Assembly (NCBI RefSeq): GCF_900102195.1
Contig: NZ_FNBE01000006.1
Coordinates: forward strand, 186,001-250,000
Source: Pseudonocardia oroxyli
GTDB taxonomy: Bacteria > Actinomycetota > Actinomycetes > Mycobacteriales > Pseudonocardiaceae
Direction: 5' to 3'
DNA length: 64,000 nt
Shown here one piece after another: positions 34,192 to 53,191 of the stretch. The first letter of the stretch is position 1, and each line of letters begins with the position of its first letter. The position numbers and the translations under genes are program-made. Below the pieces are notes generated by a model. That model was not told the DNA's origin. It saw only the letters and a list, made by a program, of their open reading frames with translations, and did no database searches.

Positions 34192-35346
34192 ATGACCGTG
34201 GTGGACGACCGGACGTCGACGCAGACCGCCGAGCTGATCATGGATCTGCAGGCGGTGGGCCTGCGGATCGAGACCGAGCTGGAGACGGGACGCAAGGGCG
34301 GGGCCGGGCCGTCGGACTCCGGGTTCCTCTGGATCGACGGCGTGCCGGTGACAGTGCCGCCGAACCCGACGTCGCCGTACGCGCTGCGCGCCGAGGACGA
34401 CGGTCAGGGGGTCTACCGCGACGGGGTGAAGGTCGCCTCGGTGTCCGGCACCAAGCGGCCGCGGTTCTACGACCTCGAGACCGCGGACGGTGTGCCCTAC
34501 CACAAGATCGCACTGCTGCACCTGGACTCGCTCGCCTCGACCGTGGTCCAGGCCTGCAACTACTGGGGCAACTCCGACCAGTGCGGATTCTGCGGGATCG
34601 GGCTCTCGCTCGCCGCGGGCTCGACGATCGCGAAGAAGACCCCCGAGATGCTGGCCGAGGTGGCCGTGGCCGCCCGCGACCTCGACGGCGCCGTCGACGC
34701 CACGCTGACCACCGGGTCCTCGGTCGCGCCGGACCGCGGGGCGCTGTACGTGGCGCGCTGCGGGCAGGCGGTGAAGGAGGCCGCGGGTCTGCCGGTGGAG
34801 GTGCAGTTCGAGCCGCCGCGGGACCTGGACGTGATCGACCAGGTCCACGACATGGGCGTCGACTCCGTCGGGATCCACATCGAGACGTTCGACCCGCAGG
34901 TGCTGGCGCGCGTCGCCCCGGGCAAGTTCCGCACCGGGATCGACACGTACTTCCGCGCCTGGGAGCGGGCCGTCTCGCTGTTCGGCGAGGGCCGGGTGTC
35001 GACGTACGTGATCCTCGGGATGGGCGAGGACCCCGAGCTCACCGTCGAGATGTGCCGACGCGCGGTGGACATCGGGGTGTACCCGTTCGTGGTGCCGCTG
35101 CGGCCCGTGGCGGGGTCGCTGATGGCGGACGTGCCCGCGCCGTCCCGGGAGTACACCGAGCCGATCTACCGGCGCGTGGCCGGTTTCCTCGAGGCCAAGG
35201 GGCTCGGCGCCGACACCGCGGTCGCCGGGTGCGCGCGCTGCCAGGCCTGCTCGTCGCTGAACCTGGTGCAGCAGTCCGGCGGGGCCACGCCGTGCGGGTC
35301 CGGCGGCGGCACCCCGGGCGTCTTCCAGATCGGCATGCGGAAGTGA
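34192..35346 (+). CDS. MSMEG_0568-family radical SAM protein (Nit1C/NitD type)
   Basis: A 384-residue radical SAM protein of the nitrogen-starvation cluster. The presumed cluster motif is VQACNYWGNSDQCGFCGIG near residue 121, in which the cysteines are spaced C-x8-C-x2-C and not the usual C-x3-C-x2-C. A second cysteine group near the C-terminus (AGCARCQACSSL plus a final Cys) could bind an auxiliary cluster. The barrel is supported by VGIHIETFDPQVL and TYVILGMGEDPELT. The Nit1C cluster has been tied to cyanide/nitrile nitrogen use in other bacteria, but the radical reaction is not known. Its stop overlaps the acetyltransferase start (GTGA). Confidence 0.88.
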   Translation: MTVVDDRTSTQTAELIMDLQAVGLRIETELETGRKGGAGPSDSGFLWIDGVPVTVPPNPTSPYALRAEDDGQGVYRDGVKVASVSGTKRPRFYDLETADGVPYHKIALLHLDSLASTVVQACNYWGNSDQCGFCGIGLSLAAGSTIAKKTPEMLAEVAVAARDLDGAVDATLTTGSSVAPDRGALYVARCGQAVKEAAGLPVEVQFEPPRDLDVIDQVHDMGVDSVGIHIETFDPQVLARVAPGKFRTGIDTYFRAWERAVSLFGEGRVSTYVILGMGEDPELTVEMCRRAVDIGVYPFVVPLRPVAGSLMADVPAPSREYTEPIYRRVAGFLEAKGLGADTAVAGCARCQACSSLNLVQQSGGATPCGSGGGTPGVFQIGMRK

Positions 35347-35918
35347 CCGCGGTCGTCCCCGAGCGGGCGACCCGGATCCGGCCCGTCGCCCCGGTGAGCG
35401 TGCTGGTGGGGGTGGACCCGGTGCTGGTCCGCCCGGCCCGCCGCCCGGACGTCCGGGCCGCGCACCACGCCATCCGCCACGCGGTGTTCGTCGAGGAGCA
35501 GGGCCTGTTCGGGGACAACGGGGGCACGGACGTCGACGCGCACGACGCCCGGGACGACGTCGTCCACGTGCTGGCGACCCACCTCGGCCGCCCCGCGGGC
35601 ACGGTCCGGCTCTACCCGCTCGGCGGCGGCGAATGGATGGGCGACCGCCTGGCGGTGTTGCCGGAGTTCCGCTCCGCCGCGATCGGCGGCCCGCTGGTGC
35701 GGTTCGCGGTGGCGGCCGCGGGCGCCCACGACGGCACCCGCATGCACGCCCACGTGCAGGTGGCCAACGAGCGCTTCTTCCACCGCCTCGGCTGGAGCAC
35801 CGCGGGACCGCGCGAGATCTACGTCGGCACCGAGCACGTCCCGATGACCACCGCCCTACAAACCCCGACGACAGAATGGCTGGCCGGCCCCCGCCCCGAA
35901 TGCATTATGGAACCTTAA
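35343..35918 (+). CDS. MSMEG_0567/Sll0786-family nitrogen-starvation N-acetyltransferase
   Basis: A 191-residue GNAT-fold protein. RRPDVRAAHHAIRHAVFVEEQGLF and the acetyl-CoA region around AAIGGPLVRFAVAAA and VANERFFHRLGW fit the MSMEG_0567/Sll0786 family, the NitE component of Nit1C clusters. In some genomes this gene adjoins the sll0787 AIR-synthase gene; here that gene is at 14.4-15.4 kb. Notably its last codons (Ile-Met-Glu-Pro-stop) are encoded by the left arm of a 61-bp palindromic repeat, so the C-terminus has been shaped by that element. Confidence 0.85.
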   Translation: MTAVVPERATRIRPVAPVSVLVGVDPVLVRPARRPDVRAAHHAIRHAVFVEEQGLFGDNGGTDVDAHDARDDVVHVLATHLGRPAGTVRLYPLGGGEWMGDRLAVLPEFRSAAIGGPLVRFAVAAAGAHDGTRMHAHVQVANERFFHRLGWSTAGPREIYVGTEHVPMTTALQTPTTEWLAGPRPECIMEP

Positions 35919-35962
35919 TGCGCGGGTAAGCGCTTCAATTCAGCAACAAGGTTCCATAGTGC
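35902..35962. repeat. 61-bp palindromic repeat, family C, copy 1
   Basis: The arms 35902-35916 (GCATTATGGAACCTT) and 35948-35962 (AAGGTTCCATAGTGC) are inverted with one mismatch. The 31-base middle contains AAGCGCTT, itself a palindrome. The left arm overlaps the end of the acetyltransferase gene and supplies Met-Glu-Pro-TAA. A 61-base sister copy is at 36931-36991; the two bracket the AbiEi/DUF559 gene. Confidence 0.88.
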
Positions 35963-36065
35963 GGTGGGTTTCGGGCTGTGGATGGGCCGGGGTTCGTGTG
36001 GATGGATTCGGCCTCCCGGGCCCTTGACGGCCTGGCCTCGGGGAGGGGTGTCGCACGATGGCGGC

Positions 36066-36947
36066 ATGAGATCCTCGTCCGTCGCCGGCATCGCCCATCT
36101 CGAACTGTTTCGCGGTTCCGAGGCCGTGACGCACGGCTACCTGAGCCGCAACGACCTCCGTAGGCCCCGGGTTCAGCGCCTGTTCCGTGACGTCTACACC
36201 TGGTCCGGCATTCCCGTCACCCACGAGCTGAGGGCCCGGGCGGCCGCGCTGGCCCTTCCAGCGGGGGCGGTGATCACGGGACGGGCGGCCGCGAGCGTGC
36301 GCGGCGCCCCGGTCGCCTGGCGAGACGATCCGGTGGACGTCGTGGCGCCGTTGACGCTCCGGATCGGTCGCCGAAGCGGTGTCCTCCTGAGACGGACCGA
36401 GCTGCGGGCGGAGGACTCTGCGCCGTGGGGTGGCGGATTGATCGCCTCGCCGCTGCGTATGGGCCTGGACCTGCTCCTCGGCCGCGCGTTGCCCGACTCG
36501 ACCGCCGACCTCGACCAGGTGCTCCGATGCGGTCTCGTCGACCGTGCCGAGCTGGCCGCAGCGCTCCGCGCGCGTCACGACAACGGGATCGTGGTGGCTC
36601 GGCAGGCCGAGCAGCTGGCCACGGGCGTCGCCGACTCCGTACCGGAGTCGAAGGTGCGGGTCCATCTCGTCCTGGCAGGCCTCGACCCGGTGGCCCAGTA
36701 TTGGATCGAGGTCGGAGGCGAGCGGATCGCACTCGTCGACCTCGCGTTCCCCGCGCGCAAGGTCGCGGTCGAGTACGACGGGGCGTGGCGCGACAATCAG
36801 ATCTGGGCGTTGAACAAGGACCGGGAACGTCTGAACCGCGTCCAGGCGGCGGGGTGGCGGGTCGTCTTCGTCACGGCGGCTCTCCTCCGCAACCCCGCCC
36901 GCATGGTCGCGGAGATCCGCGGCGCCCTCAGCACTATGGAACCTTGA
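36066..36947 (+). CDS. AbiEi-antitoxin-like / DUF559 domain protein bracketed by palindromes
   Basis: A 293-residue protein. The N-terminal half resembles the winged-helix AbiEi antitoxin region (VTHGYLSRNDLRRPRVQRLF, then ALPAGAVITGRAAASVRGAP). The C-terminal half resembles the DUF559 / very-short-patch-repair-endonuclease fold (VAVEYDGAWR, a DRERLNRVQAAGWRVVFVT stretch), with Glu/Asp residues placed as in that nuclease fold. Such proteins are abundant, often multicopy, in actinobacteria; no AbiEii toxin gene is beside it. The last codons (Thr-Met-Glu-Pro-stop) lie in the left arm of palindrome family C copy 2, and copy 1 ends about 100 bases before its start. It separates two genes that would otherwise be directly convergent. 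Confidence 0.78.
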   Translation: MRSSSVAGIAHLELFRGSEAVTHGYLSRNDLRRPRVQRLFRDVYTWSGIPVTHELRARAAALALPAGAVITGRAAASVRGAPVAWRDDPVDVVAPLTLRIGRRSGVLLRRTELRAEDSAPWGGGLIASPLRMGLDLLLGRALPDSTADLDQVLRCGLVDRAELAAALRARHDNGIVVARQAEQLATGVADSVPESKVRVHLVLAGLDPVAQYWIEVGGERIALVDLAFPARKVAVEYDGAWRDNQIWALNKDRERLNRVQAAGWRVVFVTAALLRNPARMVAEIRGALSTMEP

Positions 36948-36991
36948 TGCGAAAGGAAAGCGCTTCACCGCGCATCAAGGTTCCATAGTGC
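36931..36991. repeat. 61-bp palindromic repeat, family C, copy 2 (perfect 21-bp arms)
   Basis: The arms 36931-36951 and 36971-36991 are perfectly complementary over 21 bp, beginning GCACTATGGAACCTTGATG. The loop again contains AAGCGCTT. The left arm encodes Thr-Met-Glu-Pro-TGA of the AbiEi/DUF559 gene, and the last base of the right arm is the last base of the glmS stop codon. It can terminate transcription from both sides. Confidence 0.92.
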
Positions 36992-38826
36992 TATTCGACC
37001 GTGACGGACTTCGCGAGGTTTCTGGGGCGGTCGACGTCTCTTTCCAGGGCCACTGCGGCGTGGTAGGCCAGGAGCTGCAGGGGGACGCTCATCAGGATGC
37101 TGTCCAGCTCCGGCTCGCTGCGCGGGACGACGATCGTGCGGTCGGCCAGGTCCTCGGGCAGCGCGCGGTGGGCCAGCGCGACCACCGGGCCGCGGCGGGC
37201 CCTGATCTCGGCGAGCGTCGAGGTGTTCTTGTCGAACAGGTCGTCGTCCGGCACGCAGGCCACGGTCGGCAGCTCGGGGCTGACCAGGGCCAGCGGCCCG
37301 TGCTTGAGCTCGGCGGACGCGTAGGCCTCCGCGTGCACGTAGGAGACCTCCTTGAACTTCTGCGCGCCCTCCTTCGCGACCGGCCACCCGCGCCTGCGCC
37401 CGATGAACAGCACCGAGTTGCGCCGCGCGATCTCCTGCGCGACGGCCTCGATGGTCCCGTCCCGCTTCTCCGCGTCGAGGATCTCCTCGATCTGCCCCGG
37501 GAGCGCCGCGAGACCGTCGAGGATGCGCCTGCCCTCCGTCGGGGCGAGGTCCCGCATCCGGCCCAGGTGCACCGCGAGCAGCGCGAAGGCCGCCACGGTG
37601 GAGGTGAAGGACTTGGTGGCGGCCACGGACATCTCCGCGCCCGCGTGGATGTAGATGCCGCCGTCGACGGCGCGGGCGATCGTCGAGCCCACCACGTTGA
37701 CGATCCCGATCACCCGCCCGCCCTTGCGCTGCAGCTCCTGTACCGCGGCGAGGGTGTCGACGGTCTCGCCGGACTGGGACACCGCGACGTAGAGGGTGTC
37801 CGGCTCGACGACCGGGTTGCGGTAGCGGAACTCACTCGCCGACTCCGAGGTGGCCGGCATCCGGGCCAGGTCCTCGATGAGCTGGGCGCCGAGGTCACCG
37901 GCGTAGCAGGCCGAGCCGCAGCCGAGGATCTTCACCCGACGGAACTCGCGGGCCTCCCGCACGGAGAGGTTGAGCCCGCCGAGGTGGGCGGTGTTGAAGC
38001 GCTCGTCGATCCGGCCGCGCAGGGTGCGCTCGATGGACCGCGGCTGCTCGCCGATCTCCTTGATCAGGAAGTGCGCGTGGTCGCCGATCTCGGCGCCGAC
38101 GACGTCCCAGTCGACCTCGGAGACCGACTTGGCGGTGGTGCGCGCGTCGAGGGTGAAGGTGCGGTAGCCGCCCGCGGTGATGGTGGCCAGCTCGCCGTCG
38201 TCGAGGTAGACGACCTGGCGGGTGTAGCCGACGAGCGCCGCGACGTCCGACGCGACGAACATCTCCCGCTCCCCCACGCCGAGCAGCACCGGGGAGCCGT
38301 TGCGGGCGACGACGATCCGGTCCGGGTTCTCCGTGTCGACGACCGCGATCCCGTAGGCCCCCACGACCTGCCGCAGCGCCTGCCGGACGGCCTGCTCGAG
38401 GTCCTCGGCGCCGCCCGCGAGCGCGGCGGCGACGAGGTGCGCGACGGTCTCGGTGTCCGTCTGCGAGGTGAACTCCACACCGTCCGCCTGCAGCTTGGCG
38501 CGCAGCTCCTCGGCGTTCTCGATGATGCCGTTGTGCACGACGGCGATCCGGCCCGCCCCGTCGACGTGCGGGTGGGCGTTCGCGACGGTGGGCTCGCCGT
38601 GGGTGGCCCACCGGGTGTGCCCGATCCCGACCGAGCCCTTGAACCGCGCGGGCAGCTCCTCCTGCAGGTCCGCGACCCGCCCGCTGACCTTGCACAGCTT
38701 CAGCCGGCCGCGGTCGATCACCGCCACGCCCGCGGAGTCGTACCCGCGGTACTCGAGCCGGTTGAGGCCCTCGATCAGGATGGGCGCCGCATCAGCGCTG
38801 CCGACATACCCCACGATGCCGCACAT
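36991..38826 (-). CDS. glmS: Glutamine-fructose-6-phosphate aminotransferase (isomerising)
   Basis: A 611-residue GlmS that makes glucosamine 6-phosphate, the entry to peptidoglycan and mycothiol precursors. The catalytic cysteine is residue 2 (MCGIVGYVG), the glutaminase pocket includes GIGHTRWATHG and HNGIIEN, and both SIS domains are present (LGCGSACYAGDLGAQLIE, VAVSQSGETVDT, SVAATKSFTS). The C-terminal SAELKHGPLALV and the final LAKSVTVE are canonical. Length is standard. Its stop abuts palindrome C copy 2. A 95-residue gene lies eight bases upstream and may be co-transcribed. Confidence 0.97.
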   Translation of the reverse strand: MCGIVGYVGSADAAPILIEGLNRLEYRGYDSAGVAVIDRGRLKLCKVSGRVADLQEELPARFKGSVGIGHTRWATHGEPTVANAHPHVDGAGRIAVVHNGIIENAEELRAKLQADGVEFTSQTDTETVAHLVAAALAGGAEDLEQAVRQALRQVVGAYGIAVVDTENPDRIVVARNGSPVLLGVGEREMFVASDVAALVGYTRQVVYLDDGELATITAGGYRTFTLDARTTAKSVSEVDWDVVGAEIGDHAHFLIKEIGEQPRSIERTLRGRIDERFNTAHLGGLNLSVREAREFRRVKILGCGSACYAGDLGAQLIEDLARMPATSESASEFRYRNPVVEPDTLYVAVSQSGETVDTLAAVQELQRKGGRVIGIVNVVGSTIARAVDGGIYIHAGAEMSVAATKSFTSTVAAFALLAVHLGRMRDLAPTEGRRILDGLAALPGQIEEILDAEKRDGTIEAVAQEIARRNSVLFIGRRRGWPVAKEGAQKFKEVSYVHAEAYASAELKHGPLALVSPELPTVACVPDDDLFDKNTSTLAEIRARRGPVVALAHRALPEDLADRTIVVPRSEPELDSILMSVPLQLLAYHAAVALERDVDRPRNLAKSVTVE

Positions 38827-52585: not shown

Positions 52586-52759
52586 ATGTACTTCACCGAC
52601 AGGGGCATCGAGGAGCTGGTCTCCCGGCGTGGGGACGAGGCGGTCAGCGTGGAGTGGCTGGCCGCCCGGCTCCGAGACTTCGTCGACGAGCACCCGCACT
52701 ACGAGGACGCGGTGGAACGCCTCGCCACCTACCTGGCCCGCCAGGACGAGGACGAGTAG
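52586..52759 (+). CDS. DUF6104-family small protein
   Basis: A 57-residue protein that starts four bases after the kgd stop. MYFTDRGIEELVSRRGDE, SVEWLAARLRDFVDEHP and the ending RLATYLARQDEDE match the DUF6104 family, which typically follows kgd in actinobacteria. Conservation of that position suggests a role with Kgd, although no function is known. A strong hairpin directly follows. Confidence 0.82.
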   Translation: MYFTDRGIEELVSRRGDEAVSVEWLAARLRDFVDEHPHYEDAVERLATYLARQDEDE

Positions 52760-52763
52760 GCGG

Positions 52764-52802
52764 ACGGCGCGTTCGCTCACACCTGGTGGGCGAACGCGCC
52801 GT
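52764..52802. terminator. Bidirectional 17-bp-stem terminator after kgd/DUF6104
   Basis: The arms 52764-52780 (ACGGCGCGTTCGCTCAC) and 52786-52802 pair along 17 positions with a single G-T type wobble around the loop ACCTG. It stands between the DUF6104 gene and the convergent four-gene FtsK module. Confidence 0.82.
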
Positions 52803-52825
52803 TCGTCGGTCGGCGGGGCGGGGAC

Positions 52826-53191
52826 TCAGCGGCGGAAGCCGAACTTGGTGCGCTGGATCAGGGCCATCAGGGCCTGGTGGGCCGCGTACATCTCCTGCTC
52901 GTACTCCGCCAGGCGCCGTGGGTCCGCGCTCGGGTCGGGGCGGGGAAAGGGGCGGACGGTCATCCACGCCTCCGACCACATGGCGTCCAGCGCGGTCTCC
53001 CAGTGCGAGCGCGCCGCGAGCTCGCTCATCGCGGCCCGCTCCCCGATCCGGCCCATGCGGTCGTCGAGCACCGCGAGCCGGTCCTCCAGCTCCGCGGCCC
53101 GCACCGCGTCCCGCCTGCGCAGCGCCTCGGCGGCGGAGGCGATCCGGGCCGTCTCCGCGCGGTAGCGCTCGGCGGGCGACTGCTCGGTCAC
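52826..53191 (-). CDS. Small helical protein, last gene of the FtsK/SpoIIIE module
   Basis: A 121-residue protein, almost entirely charged helix (AETARIASAAEALRRRDAVRAAELEDRL, then YEQEMYAAHQALMALIQRTK). No signal peptide, membrane segment or enzyme motif. The GTG overlaps the stop of the ATPase gene (GTGA), so it is made together with it. A coiled-coil adaptor or chaperone is a reasonable guess. Family unknown to me. Confidence 0.65.
   Translation of the reverse strand: MTEQSPAERYRAETARIASAAEALRRRDAVRAAELEDRLAVLDDRMGRIGERAAMSELAARSHWETALDAMWSEAWMTVRPFPRPDPSADPRRLAEYEQEMYAAHQALMALIQRTKFGFRR

Follow-up and report, generated by a model that had tools for sequence, protein, structure and literature searches.

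Palindrome-bracketed AbiEi/DUF559 nuclease genes in Pseudonocardia and relatives: a probable REPtron-like system on a different enzyme

The BIMEs, or REP clusters, of enterobacteria are built of extragenic palindromic units that alternate in orientation and are joined by linkers. To our knowledge, the HUH transposases are the one enzyme family to which REP elements have so far been linked. In the REPtron, which comprises TnpA-REP (RAYT) with its REP elements and REPINs, a single-copy enzyme is coupled to a cognate palindromic doublet that flanks its gene and is also dispersed (PMC3116915; PMC8266576). Inverted repeats are also bound by the AbiEi/Rv2827c-type antitoxins of type IV toxin–antitoxin systems, for which 23-bp operator repeats have been described (PMC7319586). 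In the window, by which we mean the whole 64-kb stretch of DNA analysed here, an AbiEi/DUF559-like nuclease gene lies between two palindromes. We consider that this is probably a REPtron-like system on a different enzyme, in which the nuclease is bracketed by, and disperses, its cognate palindrome. A sequence-only reading of the window had likened the locus to a REP/RAYT arrangement with another protein family, and the comparison has held, the enzyme being a DUF559/MTES_1575 protein flanked by its own palindromes.

The two 61-bp palindromes lie where that reading had placed them and have AAGCGCTT in common in their loops (Table 1). It was also correct that the GNAT and nuclease genes both end Met-Glu-Pro-stop within the left arms of their respective palindromes (stops at 35918 and 36947), and that the right arm of the second copy adjoins the glmS stop codon. 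Arm complementarity is 85% in the left palindrome and 100%, over 22-nt arms, in the right one, and RNA folding gave −32.4 kcal/mol (z −5.4) and −42.7 kcal/mol (z −9.8) respectively. With at most one mismatch, TATGGAACCTT occurs four times in the window against 0.03 expected, every time within the arms of these two palindromes. Taken singly, each arm is nearly palindromic as well, GCATTATGG-AA-CC(A/T)TAATGC, so that each 61-bp element consists of two 22-bp units whose centres are 41 bp apart and which are separated by 19 bp of spacer; the consensus of the unit is CGCATTATGG-AA-CCATAATGCG. Rfam models matched nothing within the window. Like the BIMEs, these elements are extragenic and alternate palindromic units with linkers, but the unit sequences are other ones, the spacers are near-constant at 19–20 bp and a nuclease gene is associated with them.

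Table 1. Positions in the window of the palindromes, the genes around them and the empty site
Feature	Position	Strand	Remarks
Left palindrome	35902..35962		22-bp units 35901-35922 and 35942-35963, 41 bp apart, spacer CGGGTAAGCGCTTCAATTC
Right palindrome	36931..36991		22-bp units 36930-36951 and 36971-36992, 41 bp apart, spacer AAAGGAAAGCGCTTCACCG
GNAT acetyltransferase, upstream	35346..35918	+	Host gene, outside the element; Met-Glu-Pro-stop end within left palindrome
AbiEi/DUF559-like nuclease gene, 293 aa	36066..36947	+	Met-Glu-Pro-stop end within right palindrome
glmS, convergent neighbour	36991..38826	-	Host gene, outside the element; stop codon adjoins right palindrome
Empty site, between small ORF after kgd (stop 52757-52759) and convergent small gene 52826-53191	52760..52825		Ordinary hairpin GGCGCGTTCGC...GCGAACGCGCC

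The MTES_1575/DUF559 domain is C-terminal in the window protein. Among 54 homologs, the family models matched were MTES_1575 in 45, DUF559 in 39 and AbiEi_1 in nine, and five residues were invariant (E194, D225, E236, D252 and R255, the first four of catalytic type). Profile matches were obtained to 3hrl (E 2e-5), to the Vsr-like homing endonuclease 3r3p (E 7.5e-4) and to Vsr (about 0.8), and by homology we infer a nuclease of the Vsr/PD-(D/E)XK type. The N-terminal part may be AbiEi-like, as annotation habit and a weak AbiEi_1 match in part of the family suggest; structure prediction from four sequences gave a pLDDT of 39. The family shares with the AbiEi/Rv2827c antitoxins this AbiEi-type signature in some of its members and the presence of inverted repeats of about 22–23 bp adjoining the gene. 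It differs in its nuclease-type C-terminal domain, in lacking an adjacent AbiEii toxin here (the gene stands next to GNAT and glmS in the window, and next to various genes at other loci) and in the placing of its repeats, which flank the gene on both sides and also occur at 3' ends throughout the genome. The C-terminal domain is related by profile to those of I-Bth0305I (PDB 3r3p) and Vsr, whereas the gene described here lies outside introns, inteins and phages, is bracketed by palindromes and does not multiply.

The palindrome is by no means confined to this locus. The genome of the soil actinobacterium from which the window comes (G000) has twelve exact copies of TATGGAACC-N35-GGTTCCATA. Searches that allowed 20–40 bp and then 20–50 bp found a gap of 35 bp in every one, and the presence of these copies rules out a single local duplication of the window palindrome. 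Single units with at most three mismatches numbered 60 in G000, 82 in G156, 139 in each of G164 and G165, 322 in G168, 124 in G180 and 220 in G203, while most other Pseudonocardia genomes had none; a reversed-pattern control gave 0 in G000 and 0–1 across genomes. Arrays of two to six units occur in P. autotrophica, P. halophobica, P. kujensis and P. terrae. Array spacers, those of G000 included, measure 19 bp in 123 of 136 cases and 20 bp in 11, and the unit period in G156 is 42 bp. The 104 distinct 19-nt spacers are almost all mutually unrelated. A CRISPR-like array was considered and rejected, as the spacers, although almost all unique, fall much below CRISPR spacer length and the unit also occurs in doublets at gene ends; the regular period of the arrays is better explained by site spacing. 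A viral origin was likewise rejected, viral contigs having neither the strict palindrome pattern nor relatives of the protein. We note that a Thermoguttaceae MAG, A05DMB26, contained many TATGGAACC-gap-GGTTCCATA matches (L063, L102, L111, L114 and others; 38–39 bp in total where listed), and in this unrelated organism they are probably a dispersed repeat of the MAG's own.

Most copies stand alone at gene ends and without a nuclease, and they prefer convergent 3' ends. Where genes were called on both sides (by a simple coding-potential script outside annotated records), 50 distinct arrays comprised 38 between convergent genes, 12 between codirectional genes and none between divergent genes, compared with 67, 132 and 59 respectively for all gene pairs at the same loci (P 4e-11 and 2e-5 for the array bias). 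A majority of the arrays span the distance from stop codon to stop codon or provide the stop themselves, at an offset of −18 in the Met-Glu-Pro-stop frame, and array ends mostly lie within about 15 nt of stops. At four junctions common to P. autotrophica/P. halophobica and P. kujensis/P. terrae, where the flanking proteins are about 90–98% identical, units were 88% and spacers 64% identical; the units are thus old, conserved and stable in position in that group of Pseudonocardia. Spacer halves in the GGNNCC family were not significantly self-complementary when tested, so selection for a hairpin rests on the arms.

The link between gene and palindrome was examined by a sequence-blind comparison of the two 450-bp flanks at 67 homolog loci from many Pseudonocardiaceae genera (28–100% identity). 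Matching flank repeats with a score of at least 20 were present at 42 of these 67 loci and at none of 107 control genes of the same size from the same genomes (P 4e-23), which strongly supports the view that gene and palindromes belong together. Most of these repeats are palindromic and some 60 bp long, and their sequence differs gene by gene. Each of the five paralogs in G000 has a different repeat pair around it (scores 37, 24.5, 46, 20.5 and 59.5), and the palindrome of one of them, C30, has five further paired loci in G000 with 39-bp spacing, four of them convergent; at most sites the ends of the copies fall at 0 or −9 of stops. The sequence-only reading had proposed a cassette of the nuclease gene with a duplicated palindrome, together with a search for the arm and for AbiEi/DUF559 genes across the genome and its relatives. 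That search found the units and bracketed homologs described above. The link to DUF559 genes stood; the restriction of the palindrome to the cassette did not, with 60–322 units per genome that are mostly alone at gene ends. As the palindrome is genome-wide and yet linked to these genes, the cassette idea survives in an altered form, with a gene that is single copy per palindrome family and units that reach hundreds.

Close homologs of the window protein, mostly 57–76% identical to it, are present in about 20 of 62 Pseudonocardia genomes. At least three units occur in 13 of the 20 genomes with a close homolog and in five of the other 42 (P 4e-5, a nominal value as the genomes are related). The close-homolog genomes without the standard unit mostly have a diverged unit around the gene, and nearly every close homolog with readable flanks has units of its own species' sequence on both sides. 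Loci with more similar proteins also tend to have more similar palindromes (Mantel rho 0.34, exceeded in 0 of 2000 permutations), a signal for which shared ancestry partly accounts. About one third of the 67 loci have no flanking pair. Among these are L238, L239 and L247–L250 from other Pseudonocardiaceae genera (42–44% identity, several in g24), a subfamily that may either have become domesticated or offer a natural control. In G203 (L170), which is rated 100% complete and has 220 units, a close nuclease ortholog was not found in the genome; the gene was either lost, missed in the assembly or replaced in its role by another paralog. At one further locus, L292, a G634 homolog, both flanks have a tandem CCGTTGACCGTGCGTCGTAAT-type repeat instead of a palindrome.

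Within the genus the gene appears to have moved between loci: close homologs occupy at least eight distinguishable junctions and are bracketed, with few exceptions, wherever both flanks can be read. One of these junctions lies after kgd. In G164, G168 and G156 it holds an array–nuclease–array structure, whereas in the window it holds an ordinary bidirectional hairpin and no palindrome of the nuclease's family. The empty site thus belongs to another junction than the one next to glmS, where the sequence-only reading had supposed a single ancestral palindrome joined later by the gene, and where no such history was seen. The G156 copy and the G164/G168 copies do not form one clade (p-AU 3e-9), and the junction was therefore filled twice or its resident replaced. 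Flank copies are frequently best matched as direct repeats, although both direct and inverted arrangements were seen; at G154:C24 (L218) the two copies are direct repeats identical over 63 of 63 positions, and the other gene copy in G154 has a different palindrome. Split or frameshifted copies of the gene are present in G200, G190, G205:C156 and G166. A near-identical strain pair with and without a copy was not found among the genomes compared.

Several properties are shared with the REPtron: a single-copy enzyme gene between its own palindromes, several enzymes per genome each with a private palindrome family, inverted palindrome doublets with a spacer fixed in length and variable in sequence, and an extragenic position at gene ends in tens to hundreds of copies. 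The enzyme here, however, is a DUF559/MTES_1575 nuclease and not an HUH Y1 transposase, the units are regularly spaced at 36–42 bp in arrays of up to six, the host belongs to the Actinomycetota and the gene itself changes locus. PF01797, the model for the Y1 HUH transposase, had no match in G000, G164, G165, G168, G180 or G203, and a RAYT/Y1 transposase was rejected as mobiliser on account of its absence from the main unit-bearing genomes, G156 excepted. The GTAG tag was likewise missing within 10 nt of the array end in all 50 arrays. As these two features, the Y1 transposase and GTAG, define the REPtron, the present system would work like one and yet not be one. A survey of GTAG/CGTC REPs makes no mention of actinobacteria, Pseudonocardia, Streptomyces or mycobacteria, and the open-access papers that we searched contained no description of DUF559 genes with palindromes, mobile repeats or homing.

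We propose that the AbiEi-like N-terminal part and the nuclease domain may together recognise the cognate palindrome, either as duplex sites or as a hairpin or cruciform, and that the nuclease would cleave it and so bring about its copying and movement. Cleavage would promote copying of the palindrome into hairpin-forming terminator regions between genes, and occasionally the whole palindrome–gene–palindrome unit would be copied into such regions likewise. Inserted copies could be tolerated because they act as replacement bidirectional terminators and give in-frame stops (Met-Glu-Pro-stop). By analogy with the AbiEi and Rv2827c repeats, a role as operator or terminator may coexist with mobility, since many convergent gene pairs have no other structure between them than these copies.

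As to the way in which the gene itself moves, the chief alternative is a cassette of the homing-endonuclease kind, in which the nuclease cuts palindromes at other sites, the break is repaired from palindrome–gene–palindrome and the palindromes spread in some other way. The profile relation to 3r3p, the homologous arms on both sides of the gene, a kgd junction occupied twice and the split or frameshifted genes, which the homing life cycle predicts, would all fit. Homing should multiply the gene, however, and there are tens to hundreds of palindromes but one gene per family; in addition, a private palindrome family for each paralog needs a separate cause of palindrome spread anyway. We regard homing as unlikely. 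The palindromes could also be immobile, serving as operators and bidirectional terminators maintained by selection, with the AbiEi-like protein as a DNA-binding regulator. AbiEi and Rv2827c do bind to their own promoters, at inverted repeats of 23 bp (PMC7319586), the hairpins are strong, the fixed 41-bp period would suit binding on the same face and units are better conserved than spacers at orthologous junctions. The solo copies, however, are at 3' ends and never, in 50 arrays, at divergent promoters, every paralog and every genome has palindrome sequences of its own, the gene is found at many junctions and the nuclease residues are invariant, and purely regulatory sites seem to us unlikely as well.

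It would be most improbable that the palindromes are only landing pads, that is, host terminator families spread by another agent into which DUF559 genes merely insert. Arrays and terminators do occupy the same places, G203 has units without the gene and the empty kgd junction has an ordinary hairpin; against this, single genomes can hold two or more nucleases, each with a separate dispersed family that brackets and matches it, and the unit-rich genomes except G156 have no Y1 transposase.

The REPtron-like reading may extend well beyond Pseudonocardia. On balance we favour an undescribed, phylum-wide class of mobile palindromic elements in the Actinomycetota, in which several DUF559/MTES_1575 nucleases per genome each propagate private palindromes, set at regular intervals, which take the place of bidirectional terminators where genes converge. 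If true, the REP/RAYT lifestyle would have originated here independently and without a transposase, and a second, unrelated nuclease family with REP-like genome-wide logic would mean that it had more than one origin. Such a system would also supply a testable role for the AbiEi/DUF559 proteins, which are abundant and unexplained in actinobacteria, including mycobacteria, and would account for intergenic hairpin families in such genomes and for the turnover of bidirectional terminators. As there are several enzyme–palindrome pairs per genome, cognate specificity is directly testable by swapping pairs. Outside the Pseudonocardiaceae, 15 of 28 loci had matching flanks, a few of which resemble simple repeats and not palindromes. 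These loci include a Mycobacterium-like genus, inferred as such from a neighbour resembling a mycolic-acid methyltransferase, and in G661 a Mycobacterium-like family is repeated with a spacing of strictly 36 bp. All four loci from records named as Tsukamurella or Arthrobacter were bracketed. The palindrome of the Arthrobacter paralog is found at 40 places, a count that may include both strands, and the two paralogs of Tsukamurella tyrosinosolvens NCTC13231 have different palindromes at 20 and 11 places, where again both strands may be counted. Both of the latter palindromes were confined to T. tyrosinosolvens within the collection searched, and of the eight solo Tsukamurella copies that were read, six were convergent and none divergent by RefSeq annotation. 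The records NZ_LR134446-NZ_LR134468 of T. tyrosinosolvens NCTC13231 are labelled as plasmids; they contain the core chromosomal genes purB, purD, ftsH and ectB and look like pieces of the chromosome.
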